Shown piece by piece: positions 5,714-60,800 of a stretch of 61,086 nt of DNA. Origin of the DNA: an uncultured Alistipes sp. (GTDB lineage Bacteria > Bacteroidota > Bacteroidia > Bacteroidales > Rikenellaceae); NCBI GenBank assembly GCA_944321965.1, contig CALUNH010000013.1, forward strand, positions 1-61,086. Reading direction: 5' to 3'. Under the pieces are notes generated by a model. It was not told where the DNA came from. It did no database searches and worked only from the letters and a program-made list of their open reading frames with translations. Position 1 is the first letter of the stretch. Each line of letters begins with the position of its first letter. A program made the translations under genes and the position numbers.

Positions 5714-7327
5714 ATGAAGACAGGAAAAGGAATAAACACGCTGCGTCTGCTTGTGGCAGCCGCCCTTGTGACGGTGGCCGGAGCCTGTACGGGCAATTTC
5801 GAGGAGTACAACCACAACCCGAACGAGACGACCGACAGCGAGCTGGAGCGCGACAACTACAACGTGGGCGCGAAACTGCTGCAGCTGCAGAACGAGGTGA
5901 TTCCCTCACAGGAGCACCTGTATCAGTTCACGGAGATTCTGGCCGGGATGGCCTACGGGGGCTATTCGGAGGCCATTCCGACGTGGACGGGCAAATTTTC
6001 GACCTTCAATCCCACGGCAGACTGGCTCAAGGCCCCGTTCGTGACGCTGATGACCGAGACCTATGCCCCCTACCGCGGGATTCTGGCCGCCACGGAGGAT
6101 GAGGTGCCGCTGGCGCTGGCCTCGCTGCTGCGTGTGGCGATCATGCACCGGCTGACGGACCAGTACGGCCCGATCCCCTACTCGAAGGTGATCGAGGACC
6201 GGAAAAACTCGCTGGCCGTGGCCTACGATACGCAGGAGGAGGTCTATGCGACGATGTTCGCGGAGCTGGACGCGGCGATTGCCGTGCTGGAGGCGAACCG
6301 GACGCTGTCGACCGAGGCTTTCGGGGAGTATGACCTGGTCTACGGCGGGGATCTGAAGAAATGGATTCTCTTTGCCAATTCGCTGAAGCTGCGCATGGCG
6401 ATGCGCCTGACGGAGGTCGATGCGGCGACGGCCCGCACGAAGGCTGCCGAGGCCGTTGCGGCGGGTGTGATCACGTCGAATGCGGACAATGCGATGTTCA
6501 AGCCGACGGTCAACCGCACGGCGATCTGCTTCAGTGAGTGGAAGCAGCACCCGATTTCGGCCGATCTGGACAGCTACATGAACGGCTATGCGGATCCGCG
6601 GCGCGGGAAGATGTTCACGACGGTGAAGGTCACCGAGACGGTGACGGACCCCGACACGCAGCAGCCGGTGACGGTAACGAAGGACGGATACCGGGGCCAG
6701 CGCATCGGCACGACGCCTTCGGACAAGGATGCGGCCACGACGCAGTTGTCGCATCCGGACATTGTGGACAGTGATCCGATCATCTGGCTCACGGCCGCGG
6801 AGGTTGCCTTCCTGAAGGCGGAATGGGAGCTTCGCTGGGGTTCGGTCGCCGAAGCGGGGAATCTCTACCGGCAGGGAGTTTCGCTGTCGTTCGAGCAGTG
6901 GGGCGCGGGTTCAGCCGACGAGTACCTGGCGACCGAGGCCAAACCGGCGGACTTTGTGGATCCGCTGGGCACGGGCTACGGTTTTTCGGCGCAGGCGACG
7001 GTCACGCCGGTGTGGAGTGACACGGACGATCCTGCGACGGCGCTCGAACGGATCATCACGCAGAAGTGGATTGCGATCTTCCCGCTGGGCAACGAGGCGT
7101 GGAGCGAGTACCGCCGCACGGGCTATCCGCGCCTGATGCCGGTTCCCGATTCGGGGAACATGTCGGGCGGGACGGTCACGTCGCGCTGGGGTGCCCGGCG
7201 CCTGCAATACCCCACCGAGGAGTACAACGAGAACCGGGCGAACGTCACGGCGGCCGTGGCGGGCGAGCTGAAGGGCACGGACACCTTCGGGAGCCGGGTC
7301 TGGTGGGACAAACGAACCTTGAACTAA
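5714..7327 (+). CDS. SusD/RagB-family outer-membrane lipoprotein (PUL 1)
   Basis: This 537-residue surface lipoprotein should form the lid of the SusC channel and deliver glycans to it. The signal peptide ends in the lipobox VAGAC, placing the lipidated Cys at about residue 25. The mature start (TGNFEEYNHNPNETTDSELE) and later segments (SLKLRMAMRLTEVDAATART, ERIITQKWIAIFPLGNEAWSEYRR) are typical of the SusD-like_2 branch. TPR-like helices fill most of the chain. It is followed 13 nt later by the GH18-like gene, so the whole PUL reads as one operon. The paralogue at 15859-17433 shares the same landmarks. Confidence 0.93.
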   Translation: MKTGKGINTLRLLVAAALVTVAGACTGNFEEYNHNPNETTDSELERDNYNVGAKLLQLQNEVIPSQEHLYQFTEILAGMAYGGYSEAIPTWTGKFSTFNPTADWLKAPFVTLMTETYAPYRGILAATEDEVPLALASLLRVAIMHRLTDQYGPIPYSKVIEDRKNSLAVAYDTQEEVYATMFAELDAAIAVLEANRTLSTEAFGEYDLVYGGDLKKWILFANSLKLRMAMRLTEVDAATARTKAAEAVAAGVITSNADNAMFKPTVNRTAICFSEWKQHPISADLDSYMNGYADPRRGKMFTTVKVTETVTDPDTQQPVTVTKDGYRGQRIGTTPSDKDAATTQLSHPDIVDSDPIIWLTAAEVAFLKAEWELRWGSVAEAGNLYRQGVSLSFEQWGAGSADEYLATEAKPADFVDPLGTGYGFSAQATVTPVWSDTDDPATALERIITQKWIAIFPLGNEAWSEYRRTGYPRLMPVPDSGNMSGGTVTSRWGARRLQYPTEEYNENRANVTAAVAGELKGTDTFGSRVWWDKRTLN

Positions 7328-8224: not shown

Positions 8225-9532
8225 ATGAAAGAGATGAAACATATCCTTTTGGCGCTGCTTGCCGTTTTGGCGGCCGCCACGGGCTGCAAGACCGAGGACT
8301 ACGACGACGGCACGACGCCGGTTTCGAACACGGTCTATATCGGGGCCGCGGAGACCACCCCGGATGCGCCCGTCACGTTCAAGCGCACGGTCCAGACGCT
8401 CGACCGGGAATTTACCGTGAAGCTGGTCTCCCCGCTGTCGGAGGCGGTCGATGTGGAGTTCCGCATCGATGCCGAGGCGGTTTCGGCCTACAACCGGCGT
8501 CACGACACCTCCTACGGGCTGCTGGAATCGATCCACTACAACCTCGCACAGCAATCGGTGGGCATCGAGGCGGGGAAGGTTGAATCCGCCCCGGTAACGA
8601 TCCGCTTCCAGGGTCTCGACCAGCTGGAGATGAACGAGACTTATTTGCTTCCGGTGTCGCTGACCTCGGCGTCGAACGGACTGGGTCTGCTTCGGGGTTC
8701 GGAGACGCTCTACTACCTGGTGAAGCGCTCTTCGGCGATCACCACGGCGGCGGACCTGACGGACTGCTACATGTGGGTTCCGACGTTCGAGACGCAGGCG
8801 GGCCAGGCTCCGATCATGGGGCTGAAAGCCATGACCTACGAGGTTCTGGTCAACGTCCCGGAGTATTTGACCTCGCTGCCGAGCCAGGGTACGGTGAACG
8901 TCACCTCGGTGATGGGCGTCGAGCAGCACTGCCTGCTGCGCATCGGCGATGCCAATTATCCGCGCCAGCAGATCCAGCTGCAGGTGGATGGCACCTACTT
9001 CCCGGCCAGCGGCAGTGACAACGTGATTCCGGCGCTGACGCTCGATCCGGGCGAGTGGTACCACATCGCCTTCACGTGGGACATCGAGGAGGAGATCGGG
9101 CGCATCTACGTCAACGGACGGCTGGCCTACTCCGACCGCCTGCCGTGCAATAGCGATACGTTCGACATCGGACAGGTCTCGAAGGGCGGGACCGAGGATA
9201 CGGCCTACCGCTTCCTGATCGGCTACTCCTACAACCCCTACCGGCCGTTGAACGGCATGGTCTCCGAGGTACGGATCTGGTCCGTGGCGCGGAGCGAGGA
9301 GGAGATCTTCCGCGATATGTACGAGATTGCGGATCCGGCCTCGAAATCCGAACTGCGAGCCTACTGGAAATTCAACGAAGGCACGGGTAATACCGCCAGG
9401 GACTATTCGCAGTACGGCAACGATGCGGTCTGCCTCGACGGCTCCAACAGCATGGAGATCGGCGAGCGCAACGAGGGTACGCTCAAGTGGAACAACGCCA
9501 TCGAAATCCCGATGCTCAACCAGGAAGAATAA
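8225..9532 (+). CDS. DUF1735 + LamG-fold surface lipoprotein (PUL 1)
   Basis: This 435-residue lipoprotein has its lipobox at AATGC. A DUF1735-type beta-sandwich covers about residues 30-155 (NTVYIGAAE, VDVEFRIDAEAVSAYNRRHD, TYLLPVSLTSASN). A concanavalin/LamG-like domain follows at about 190-430 (VMGVEQHCLLRIGD, GEWYHIAFTWDIEE, GRIYVNGRLAYSD, LNGMVSEVRIWSVARSEEEI, AYWKFNEGTGNTARDYSQYG). The LamG domain normally binds glycans; no catalytic motif is evident. It is likely a surface glycan-binding protein, and the PUL 2 counterpart (13564-14934) keeps nearly all these landmarks. The flanking genes are 11 and 12 nt away, consistent with one operon. Confidence 0.85.
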   Translation: MKEMKHILLALLAVLAAATGCKTEDYDDGTTPVSNTVYIGAAETTPDAPVTFKRTVQTLDREFTVKLVSPLSEAVDVEFRIDAEAVSAYNRRHDTSYGLLESIHYNLAQQSVGIEAGKVESAPVTIRFQGLDQLEMNETYLLPVSLTSASNGLGLLRGSETLYYLVKRSSAITTAADLTDCYMWVPTFETQAGQAPIMGLKAMTYEVLVNVPEYLTSLPSQGTVNVTSVMGVEQHCLLRIGDANYPRQQIQLQVDGTYFPASGSDNVIPALTLDPGEWYHIAFTWDIEEEIGRIYVNGRLAYSDRLPCNSDTFDIGQVSKGGTEDTAYRFLIGYSYNPYRPLNGMVSEVRIWSVARSEEEIFRDMYEIADPASKSELRAYWKFNEGTGNTARDYSQYGNDAVCLDGSNSMEIGERNEGTLKWNNAIEIPMLNQEE

Positions 9533-11320: not shown

Positions 11321-11391
11321 GGTCGACGCGCGGAACCGGGCCGGAAACCTTTCAACATCCCTCCGCCCCTGAAACCGGTTTCTTAAACCGG
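11321..11391 (+). repeat. Repeat module A, copy 1 (ends in the CCGGTTTCTTAAACCGG hairpin)
   Basis: This 71-nt unit starts GGTCGACGCGCGGAA and ends with a small hairpin, CCGG-TTT-CTT-AAA-CCGG, at 11375-11391. A second unit at 11563-11634 starts identically, and three shorter relatives are tandem at 60436-60627. It immediately precedes the structured element at 11390-11559, as the tandem units do at 60630. Confidence 0.7.
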
Positions 11392-11559
11392 CACCTTTTG
11401 GTGTCAAAAGGTGCCACCAAAACCAGCCGCAAGTTGCTTTTCGCGGGAATCTTCGGAAAACCTCGCTGAACGGGCGCAGTAAGATCAAGCCTTTACAGCC
11501 TCCCGTTCCGGGCGCTCGGTTTTCCGAAGATTCTTTTTCCGCAAAAAACAAAGTGCGGC
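11390..11559. repeat. Structured repeat element, copy 1
   Basis: It has three nested parts. Hairpin 2 is GGCACCTTTTG/CAAAAGGTGCC with a GTGT loop (11390-11415). A long perfect 16-bp stem joins 11447-11462 to 11518-11533. Inside it is a 47-nt conserved segment (11467-11513), closed by GAACGGG (11468-11474) with CCCGTTC (11502-11508). An outer GCCGCA/TGCGGC pair at 11426 and 11554 brackets the whole. Copy 2 (60630-60800) matches the conserved segment at 44 of 47 positions while its long stem has an unrelated sequence. No protein-coding role is supported. Orientation is unknown. Confidence 0.7.
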
Positions 11560-11562
11560 GGC

Positions 11563-11634
11563 GGTCGACGCGCGGAATCGGCCCGGAAACCCTTCACAGA
11601 TACCATCGCCCCTAAAACCCCTTTCTTAAAGGGG
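11563..11634 (+). repeat. Repeat module A, copy 2 (variant hairpin)
   Basis: This unit is closely related to 11321-11391, but its end hairpin reads CCCC-TTT-CTT-AAA-GGGG (11618-11634). The change from CCGG/CCGG to CCCC/GGGG keeps the pairing intact, so the hairpin itself seems to be under selection. Confidence 0.65.
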
Positions 11635-11707
11635 AGGAGGATTGTGCGCGGGGGAATCTCCGGCTTGATGAAAAAAGCGAAAAGAAAGATGCGGACTAAA
11701 AATGCGA

Positions 11708-11754
11708 GCGCCGGGGACGGTTTGCTTGCAAACCCGCGAATAGTCGCCCGGCGC
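11708..11754. repeat. Cruciform / three-way-junction inverted repeat
   Basis: An 8-bp outer stem (GCGCCGGG at 11708-11715 with CCCGGCGC at 11747-11754) encloses two small hairpins: GGTTTGC-TT-GCAAACC (11719-11734) and GCGA-ATAG-TCGC (11736-11747). It lies between the convergent PULs and is in no credible gene. Confidence 0.55.
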
Positions 11755-11806
11755 CAATGTTAGGCCGCGTCTTTCCGGTTTTTTCATTGTGCCGGGCGGT
11801 TTTTGC

Positions 11807-11834
11807 GGCGCTTTTTGCCGATCCAAAAAGCGCC
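11807..11834. repeat. Perfect 11-bp hairpin in the inter-PUL region
   Basis: GGCGCTTTTTG (11807-11817) pairs with CAAAAAGCGCC (11824-11834) around a 6-nt loop. The run of T on one arm and of A on the other resembles hairpin 2 of the structured repeat. It may belong to another intergenic repeat family. Confidence 0.5.
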
Positions 11835-11890
11835 AAAACCCGCAACCGGAACGGTTGCCGGGGATTTGGGGGCCGAGCCCACAAAGGAAC

Positions 11891-37672: not shown

Positions 37673-37703
37673 TTTGTTTTTCGGGTATTAAGCGTTATCT
37701 TTG
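37673..37703 (+). promoter_or_regulatory. Promoter for the cobalamin-riboswitch transcript
   Basis: TTTG at 37673-37676 and TATCTTTG at 37696-37703 are 19 nt apart, a full match to the Bacteroidetes consensus. The start site would be near 37710, exactly where the riboswitch begins. Confidence 0.75.
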
Positions 37704-37710
37704 CCCCGGA

Positions 37711-37877
37711 TTTGGTTTCCAACTCCCCGTGCGGGGAGGGAATGAAAAGGGAATCGGGTGCAAGTCCCGAACAGTCCCGCTGCTGTGAAACTCCGCAGAC
37801 GTTCCGAGTATCTCGGCCACTGATCCTCCGGGATCGGGAAGGCTTCGGAACGGGAGCCAGTCAGAAGACCTGCCAAG
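37711..37877 (+). promoter_or_regulatory. Cobalamin (B12) riboswitch
   Basis: The hallmarks of an adenosylcobalamin-class aptamer appear in order. They are GGTTTCC at the 5' end, GGGAATCGGGTGCAAGTCCC, the core GTCCCGCTGCTGTGAAACTC, and GAGCCAGTCAGAAGACCTGC at the 3' end, closing the P1 region. It lies in the leader of the gene at 38136 and would turn expression down when B12 is plentiful. The 258 nt between the aptamer and the start codon contain no clear terminator, so the switch may act on translation or through a less obvious structure. Confidence 0.93.
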
Positions 37878-38135
37878 TCGATTCGATACCGTTGTGCCCC
37901 GGGGGATGGGCATCCGGTTTCGGGCCTGAACGAACCTTTGGAAATGAGAGACGATGCCGGTTTTCGGGGTCGCAGGGTGCCGATTATGGATTTTTCGGGA
38001 CTTTCGTGCGAAGCCGGGCCGGTGAATGGATAACCCGGAAAGATTGGGTGGAGGAGTGGTGCCGCAGCCGCTGCACGGACCTCGATTCGCCGTCTGAGGA
38101 GCCCCTGCCCGCCTTTCCACAAAAAACAGAAAACG

Positions 38136-60210: not shown

Positions 60211-60285
60211 AATTTCCCATTTCCCATTTTCCATTCTCCATTTTCAATTCTCAATTCTCAATTCTCAATTCTCAATTCTCAATTC
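60211..60285. repeat. Heptanucleotide tandem array
   Basis: Six exact TCAATTC units occupy 60244-60285, preceded by about four diverged CCATTTT/CCATTCT units. It is a short-tandem-repeat array in non-coding DNA, related to the repeats at 55333 and 60866. Confidence 0.9.
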
Positions 60286-60295
60286 TCCCTCTCCG

Positions 60296-60422
60296 GTCAT
60301 TCCCGCGAAAGCGGGAATCCGCCCGGCTAAGATGCGGATCTTATGGGTGGAGGGAAGCCGAAAGGATCGGATTCGGTTTCGCGCTATGATGATCCTGGAT
60401 TTCCGCTCAAGGCGGAAATGAC
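60296..60422. mobile_element. MITE/REP-like inverted pair
   Basis: Two palindromic ends face each other across 76 bp. The left (60296-60320) reads GTCATTCCCGC-GAAA-GCGGGAATCC. The right (60397-60422) is its inverted relative, GTCATTTCCGC-CTTGA-GCGGAAATCC on the - strand. Changes in one arm of each palindrome are matched in the other. No transposase is present, so if mobile it needs help in trans. Confidence 0.6.
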
Positions 60423-60435
60423 GGGAGCGGACGAC

Positions 60436-60627
60436 GCGGATTCAAGGGTTGGAAACCTCCGAAGGGTTCAGCAGCCCTTAAAACCGGTTTCTTAAACCGG
60501 GCGGATTCACGCTGCGGAAACCGTTAAAGGTTCAGCAGCCCCTAAAACCGGTTTCTTAAACCGGGCGGATTCAAGGGTTGGAAATCTCCGAAGGTTCAGC
60601 AGCCCTTAAAACCGGTTTCTTAAACCG
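60436..60627 (+). repeat. Three tandem units of repeat module A (64-65 bp)
   Basis: Units start GCGGATTCA at 60436, 60501 and 60565, and each ends with the hairpin CCGGTTTCTTAAACCGG after a CAGCAGCCC(T)TAAAA segment. They are related to the 71-nt modules at 11321 and 11563. Confidence 0.85.
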
Positions 60628-60629
60628 GC

Positions 60630-60800
60630 GGCACCTTTTGGTGTCAAAAGGTGCCACCAAAACCATCCGCACGTCGCCTGCTGCGGGAGATGACGGACGG
60701 GTGAGTTGAGCGGGCGCAGTAAGATCAGGCCTTTACAGCCTCCCGCTCCGGGCACTCACCCGCCCGTCATCTCTTGAACCGCTTCCGGCGAGAGTGCGGA
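60630..60800. repeat. Structured repeat element, copy 2
   Basis: The layout matches copy 1 (11390-11559). Hairpin 2 is at 60630-60655. A 20-bp stem joins 60687-60706 to 60754-60773 with one mismatch. The 47-nt conserved segment (60707-60753) is closed by GAGCGGG/CCCGCTC (60708 and 60742), and an outer TCCGCAC/GTGCGGA pair lies at 60666 and 60794. The long stem has no sequence similarity to that of copy 1, yet pairing is kept. It ends about 80 bp from the flavodoxin gene. Confidence 0.7.

Follow-up and report, generated by a model that had tools for sequence, protein, structure and literature searches.

The 61,086-nucleotide window analyzed here, by which we mean the whole stretch of DNA examined (positions 1–61,086 of contig CALUNH010000013.1, assembly GCA_944321965.1), originates from an uncultured Alistipes sp. 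Between positions 8225 and 14931 it encodes four proteins with a BT_3987-like N-terminal domain, two per strand, which converge around two of the repeated elements described below (copy 1 and a type III element); the inner two proteins have GH18/endo-H-like similarity that falls under the curated cut-offs. Elsewhere, an ordinary cobalamin riboswitch lies at 37696–37891. The structured features are listed below, with bit scores from two covariance models, R1 and R2.

11375–11391, no strand assigned: module-A palindromic hairpin CCGGTTTCTTAAACCGG, directly upstream of copy 1 and overlapping its start
11389–11559, minus (inferred folding strand): copy 1, type I, 171 nt (R1 193.5 bits, R2 156.1 bits)
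11390–11415, no strand assigned: hairpin 1 of copy 1, 11 bp, CTTTTG-loop-CAAAAG core (alignment columns 2–27)
11416–11425, no strand assigned: conserved linker ACCAAAACCA of copy 1 (conserved alignment columns)
11426–11559, minus: long hairpin of copy 1 (from fold and alignment)
11447–11465 and 11513–11533: variable stem arms of that hairpin, with its conserved apical part at 11467–11512
11534–11538: 5-nt bulge of copy 1, TTTTT on the plus strand and AAAAA on the minus strand
11659–11835, plus (inferred folding strand): third element, type III, 177 nt (R1 51 bits, E 9e-9)
60612–60628, no strand assigned: module-A hairpin CCGGTTTCTTAAACCGG, directly upstream of copy 2
60629–60800, minus: copy 2, type I, 172 nt (R1 176 bits, R2 135.1 bits)
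60630–60655, 60656–60665 and 60666–60800: hairpin 1, linker and long hairpin of copy 2
60687–60705 and 60753–60773: variable stem arms of copy 2, with its bulge at 60774–60778

Read on the plus strand, copy 1 presents hairpin 1 and then the long hairpin, and the family as a whole is laid out as hairpin 1, a CAAAACC linker, and a hairpin of about 50 bp with an A-rich bulge of about 5 nt; sequence otherwise turns over widely across the family, with the core of hairpin 1 and the linker retained. The first-pass annotation had described the two type-I copies as one structured repeat with a shared loop and with stems that are unrelated in sequence yet self-complementary, and this description holds. 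The copies belong to a single family of about 170 nt, agree at 42 of 43 positions in hairpin 1 and linker, and share an apical segment identical at 43 of 46 positions in our pairwise alignment (44 of 47 in the original count), yet their stem arms match at only 7 of 19 and 9 of 21 positions while forming 18 of 19 and 17 of 19 Watson-Crick mid-stem pairs. The change from GAACGGG/CCCGTTC to GAGCGGG/CCCGCTC in the inner helix, reported as a double compensatory change, is real but concerns a single base pair (A-T to G-C) altered on both sides. The fold of the long hairpin reaches beyond the stem originally outlined, adding an outer helix, CCGCA/TGCGG. Against dinucleotide shuffles the folds score z = -7.95 (copy 1) and -9.34 (copy 2), with 0 of 200 shuffles as good in either case, and a 25-base core motif that matches twice in the window is absent from 100 shuffled versions.

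Following copy 1 at a distance of 100 bases is the type III element, which has the opposite orientation. It shares 72% identity with copy 1 over hairpin 1 and linker, and its long hairpin is alike only at the level of shuffled sequence (identity 0.60; shuffled mean 0.57, maximum 0.61). With R2, of which it is itself one of the 92 building rows, it scores 107 bits (E 3.7e-23). Both window copies follow a module-A hairpin, as had been noted, but family-wide this is true of only 22 of the 38 type-I copies with enough left flank to be scored by a loop-motif rule. The module-A stems at 60470–60628 and 11600–11640 vary but pair (CCGG/CCGG, CCCC/GGGG and, in related loci, others) around a loop that by eye is a near-constant TCTTA, and these hairpins are perhaps a second fold-conserving repeat.

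The exact core motif occurs in 43 distinct copies, every one of them in Alistipes-titled records or genomes of the same genus, and has no match in a viral collection; a phage origin was rejected on this result together with the 1 and 0 matches of the hairpin-1/linker pattern in that collection. Forty full-length type-I copies, which remain of the 43 after two half copies and one inverted copy are set aside, were used to build R1, and this model matches 43 of 180 genus genomes (18 of 70 among the better genomes). The wider model R2, built from 92 matches, finds the element in 9 of the 393 order genomes, counting the source genome. Besides the latter, the matches fall in two further genera of the same family, three genomes from family f82 (best E 1.6e-11), and three further genomes near E 1e-4, one of which (G360) has a 66-base match only; the E-values are rough, given a shortened model calibration. 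Individual genomes carry many copies: counting fragments, R2 at E 1e-5 finds 19, 13, 15, 11 and 13 matches in G000, G087, G101, G128 and G054, respectively. The hairpin-1/linker pattern was encountered in 198 of the 393 genomes, a count that is not a prevalence, as chance matches in most genomes are about as frequent as in a reversed control. In one genome (G438) R2 hits the hairpin-1 end only, and the shared shape of the long hairpin was read by eye. Separately, two loci (L231 and L234) of a genome from another family of the order (G644, family f38) hold long R2 matches (E 4e-9 and 4e-8), and beside each lies a weaker match in the opposite orientation with the hairpin-1/linker pattern, the same arrangement as in Alistipes. 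The family is real, beyond chance and large, and appears to be an undescribed family of mobile repeats of about 170 nt in gut bacteria, namely Alistipes and its relatives.

Rather than decaying into stems that no longer pair, the outcome that the first-pass annotation had set against its own proposal, the 40 full-length type-I copies keep 86.3% of the mid-stem paired. Two-sided changes occur at 33 of 63 pairs, and the covariation score over these copies is 0.287, compared with 0.102 for shuffled and at most 0.097 for slid versions of the structure. For four of the five measures (pairing, the covariation score and the two counts of two-sided changes) the observed values lie above those of all 500 shuffles and of each slid control; the fifth, the count of further pair types, was equalled by 20 of 500 shuffles. 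Similarly, hairpin 1 is paired in 98.6% of cells over the 40 copies, with 4 of its 11 pairs changed on both sides. We also wrote and applied an R-scape-like null model that takes the tree into account. With type I by itself, a single pair among the 63 is significant because the stems come in a few inherited blocks, and the comparison of two copies on its own is therefore weak evidence. Over a diverse set of 87 distinct rows, 22 of 14,878 pairs tested are significant, and all 22 fall inside the 56-pair structure, with none in its slid versions. Here the rows had been aligned by fitting them to the model; when 86 rows were aligned with MAFFT, blind to structure, 5 pairs were significant, 4 of them within the structure. 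Covariation is therefore significant over many diverse copies, with the caveat of the model-fitted alignment, and very little within type I.

To examine which strand folds, we assembled 128 distinct elements in 29 clusters from the 40 type-I copies and 94 of 109 matches; the 15 matches left out were same-genome duplicates, fragments, truncated copies, an insert-bearing element in two loci and an antisense self-match. Folds were restricted to Watson-Crick pairs and single mismatches counted as distinct events. If neither strand were special, the transitions by which a Watson-Crick pair is lost, to G.T or to A.C, would be equally open. Read on the plus strand, the elements have 83 distinct A.C events and 19 G.T events, with 23 clusters biased toward A.C, 3 in the opposite direction and the rest tied; A.C mismatches on the plus strand are G.T (G.U) wobbles on its complement. 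Moreover, the minus strand is the more stable in 27 of 29 clusters and, outside the genus, in 9 of 11 matches (the exceptions being L182 and L184). The search model was built on the plus strand and would favor the opposite outcome, so the mismatch excess and the stability together indicate that the folding single strand is probably the complement of the plus strand, on which the first-pass annotation had read the repeat. The asymmetry would suit RNA and single-stranded DNA alike; a mutational bias between the strands could also produce it, though less simply. A replication-strand preference would be expected of an element acting as single-stranded DNA; in G087 and G101, 16 of 24 full-length copies point one way, a reading that depends on a noisy GC skew with origin and terminus placed by eye.

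The same orientation brings out a fixed kink. In 121 of the 126 elements that could be parsed for it (of 128), and in 23 of 27 clusters, the 5' arm of the minus strand has an excess of at least 4 nt at positions 18–27. This bulge is usually 5 nt long and lies at a distance of about 20 nt from the 5' end; its letters are 77% A overall, and in 71 elements it is followed 23–27 nt further on by a second asymmetric loop. The excess of unpaired bases lies on the 5' arm in 24 clusters and on the 3' arm in 2, with 1 tied (27 of 29 clusters parsed for arm asymmetry). A bulge of five A residues bends a helix. Collectively, the covariation over the diverse set, the conserved asymmetric bulge and the strand-asymmetric mismatches support selection for a folded single strand, RNA or DNA, as had been proposed from the two copies, which on their own were weak grounds for it.

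These observations are most readily accommodated, in our judgment with somewhat better than even plausibility, by non-autonomous interspersed elements of about 170 nt that reside between genes in some Alistipes and a few other Bacteroidales and whose folded strand is recognized by its shape. As judged from sequence, this would be a fold-defined mobile repeat of the ERIC/BIME/MITE kind, in a form that is new to us in being fold-defined, apparently strand-specific and spread beyond one genus. The complement strand would act as a folded single strand, either single-stranded DNA or RNA, that a trans-acting factor may recognize by shape, and copies that keep the shape would be those amplified and retained. 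The sequence of the mid-stem would meanwhile drift, with template switching between the arms and recombination among repeats re-homogenizing and swapping stems; these processes could supply the block-like turnover of stems, and selection on the fold would act as the filter. Resident copies lie in intergenic DNA and occasionally turn coding.

Presence and absence of the element can be compared at one orthologous site. It lies between a small ORF (L029:986–1516), found in 10 of 20 genomes searched and without a match in Pfam or NCBIfam, and the convergent gene of a class II fructose-bisphosphate aldolase (PF01116 in L248). A full element (R2 E about 1e-29) occupies the site in four genomes (G000, G256, G087 and G154), and in six relatives the same two neighbors flank an empty site with the aldolase-end anchor close by; loss of the element in the six genomes is possible but less likely than gain. 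In all four occupied genomes the upstream ORF acquires a new C-terminal tail from the element (counterparts L246–L249). With respect to the terminal inverted repeats and target-site duplication of MITEs that depend on a DDE transposase, the ends of the element are not mutual inverted repeats (consensus, by eye), and no clear target-site duplication was seen at this one insertion, where the flanks of the empty sites have diverged and leave the exact ends unfixed. Compared by eye, the four orthologous copies differ at one stem pair, which is A-T in G000, a C x T mismatch in G256 and C-G in G087 and G154, and their other differences form G.U pairs on the minus strand, as would follow from drift that has to preserve pairing.

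The compensated pair among these resident copies, together with a mismatch asymmetry that suits the G.U pairs of RNA, could also be explained by a functional structured RNA, a small RNA or mRNA-end element transcribed from the minus strand and kept for the host, with mobility being secondary. Yersinia ERIC repeats are said to act on neighboring genes through RNA hairpins (PMC2267715). We regard this explanation as unlikely. Under stricter filters 137 of the 180 genus genomes have no match, the flanks past the element ends differ among copies (by eye), and orientation relative to genes shows no strong preference: among 98 sites, drawn from 112 located elements and annotated with a crude ORF caller, the upstream gene is in sense at 57 and antisense at 41. 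By gene arrangement, these sites are 50 tandem, 30 convergent and 18 divergent.

Quite improbable as a sufficient cause is template switching (quasipalindrome correction), which could keep the arms complementary with no selection on the fold. Homogenization of arms and inversion of the spacer are reported outcomes at inverted repeats (PMC8604942), and among the 41 type-I core matches other than half copies there is one with an inverted inner part. In this element (L069, at about 6952–6976 of the stretch from CALUMM010000002.1) the inner hairpin runs opposite to hairpin 1 and to the element's outer ends, likely a template-switch spacer inversion. The main argument against arms merely copied onto each other is the conserved asymmetry of the bulge, since such copying should erase asymmetric loops, yet the A-rich bulge stays on the same arm. 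Nor does template switching predict an asymmetry between G.T and A.C, and hairpin 1 and the apical helix covary as well.

Between two closely related genomes (L126 and L176), the same flanking genes enclose quite different elements. At another locus (L040 and L041) a swapped stem is suggested, but nearby modules differ too, so that independent insertion may account for the difference. By eye, L026, L038, L009 and L098 show module-A hairpins joined to half elements, as well as a chimera with a type III-like hairpin 1 half, which on that reading represent modular recombination between repeats.

The mover suggested earlier, a RAYT (Y1) transposase acting on REP/BIME-like elements, is largely refuted for Alistipes, and we give it very little credence. 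The elements are multi-copy and do often form arrays in which neighbors about 30–220 bases apart alternate in orientation (for example L130, L171, L139 and L140, and in the window copy 1 with the type III element), in keeping with a REP/BIME-like arrangement, and Bacteroidetes subclass 2.6 TnpA-REP genes are described as flanked by atypical GTAG-less repeats (PMC6006769). Nevertheless, the Y1 domain (PF01797) was found in 0 of 23 genus genomes, 18 of them carriers, nor was it found in the source genome, whose assembly is 85% complete. Elsewhere in the order PF01797 has 68 matches in 14 of 20 genomes, and some carriers outside the genus have Y1 genes; 30 of these loci, fetched with up to 1.5 kb on each side, contained no hairpin-1/linker pattern and no credible R2 match (best E 0.35). 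The element itself, at about 170 nt with a stem of about 50 bp, has no GTAG/CGTC end tag (40-copy consensus, by eye). Equally remote is SINE-like copying through an RNA intermediate by a reverse transcriptase of the host, an idea that the folded minus strand and the many copies might suggest, as RVT_1 is missing from 9 of 24 present-day carrier genomes (with G438 included among the carriers on its pattern and by eye), and 8 of 16 non-carriers have it. No linked gene was found, and no neighboring gene recurs widely among element loci. The largest cluster of neighbors (32 loci) was discarded, as the sequences proved to be spurious ORFs over repeats. The mobilizer may have been lost, or may belong to a family other than Y1 and RVT_1.

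Going further, the elements could represent an unrecognized shape-defined class of Bacteroidales mobile DNA, in which a strand-specific folded single strand with hairpin 1, a U-rich linker and a twice-kinked rod would be recognized and copied by a machinery other than Y1/RAYT or RVT_1, and sequences that are unrelated but of the same shape would coexist and replace one another at the same intergenic sites. We offer this extension tentatively and consider it doubtful.

The first-pass annotation knew of no described family with this layout, and our searches agree. No Rfam model matched the elements in the window at gathering level; at E up to 10 copy 2 recovered only miRNA models far under their gathering scores, and at E up to 0.5 sixteen relative loci had no match on an element. 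Open-licence literature on intergenic structured repeats of Alistipes and Bacteroidales likewise did not include it. Integron attC sites are used as a folded single strand, conserve structure over sequence and carry extrahelical bases on one arm, and the Alistipes element resembles them in the latter two respects and probably in the first. The attC core boxes R''/R' (RYYYAAC/GTTRRRY) were not found at the element ends (40-copy consensus, by eye).

By description, the nearest likeness in size and setting is to the enterobacterial ERIC and RU-1/RU-2 (YPAL-like) intergenic repeats. These measure 127–169 bp (one class 168 bp); ERIC folds as a single long stem-loop and has many intergenic copies, and some ERIC/RU copies lie in genes, where intragenic RU copies carry open reading frames (PMC2759123, PMC2267715). 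Similarly, the Alistipes element is about 170 bp long, intergenic and multi-copy, has a shared fold and is sometimes coding. Unlike ERIC/RU, it consists of two hairpins and a conserved linker with a fixed A-rich bulge, ranges through Bacteroidales, and has subfamilies that within one genome share the layout but not the sequence of the long hairpin. REPs have stems of 5–13 bp and a GTAG or CGTC end tag, the GTAG families being accompanied by RAYTs (PMC3733652, PMC6006769). Like REP, BIME and REPIN sequences as described there, the Alistipes elements are interspersed palindromes with sub-families of alternative complementary stem residues, in clusters and dimers; in contrast, they have a long tagless hairpin and the Alistipes carriers searched have no Y1.

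Porphyromonas gingivalis BrickBuilt, a MITE holding a minisatellite (PMC4596501, PMC5771137), is likewise an intergenic, non-coding repeated element of a Bacteroidales species; set side by side by description, the two differ in that the aligned Alistipes copies contain no tandem array. Candidate structured RNAs from the HMP2 human microbiome include palindromic motifs of 80–132 bp in Bacteroidetes, which are shorter and described near particular genes (PMC8040213); they are set apart here by description, with partial overlap being possible.

The family is a natural example of a layout that persists although most of the sequence turns over, and its strand signature tells which strand folds. The long-standing question of whether palindromic repeats in bacteria work as DNA or as RNA, and of what moves them, thereby becomes directly testable in gut bacteria, including named isolates. 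The repeat has also created a new protein tail in four species. Moreover, it is an assembly hazard: one contig (G148:C2) ends within a copy at both ends.

Other small repeats accompany the elements in the window. At 60299–60318 and 60397–60423 lie ATTCCCGCGAAAGCGGGAAT and a similar hairpin, which resemble the dRS3-type repeats of Neisseria; a like hairpin precedes hairpin 1 in three other loci (L066–L068). Short tandem runs of CAATTCT at 60236–60288 adjoin the repeat cluster.
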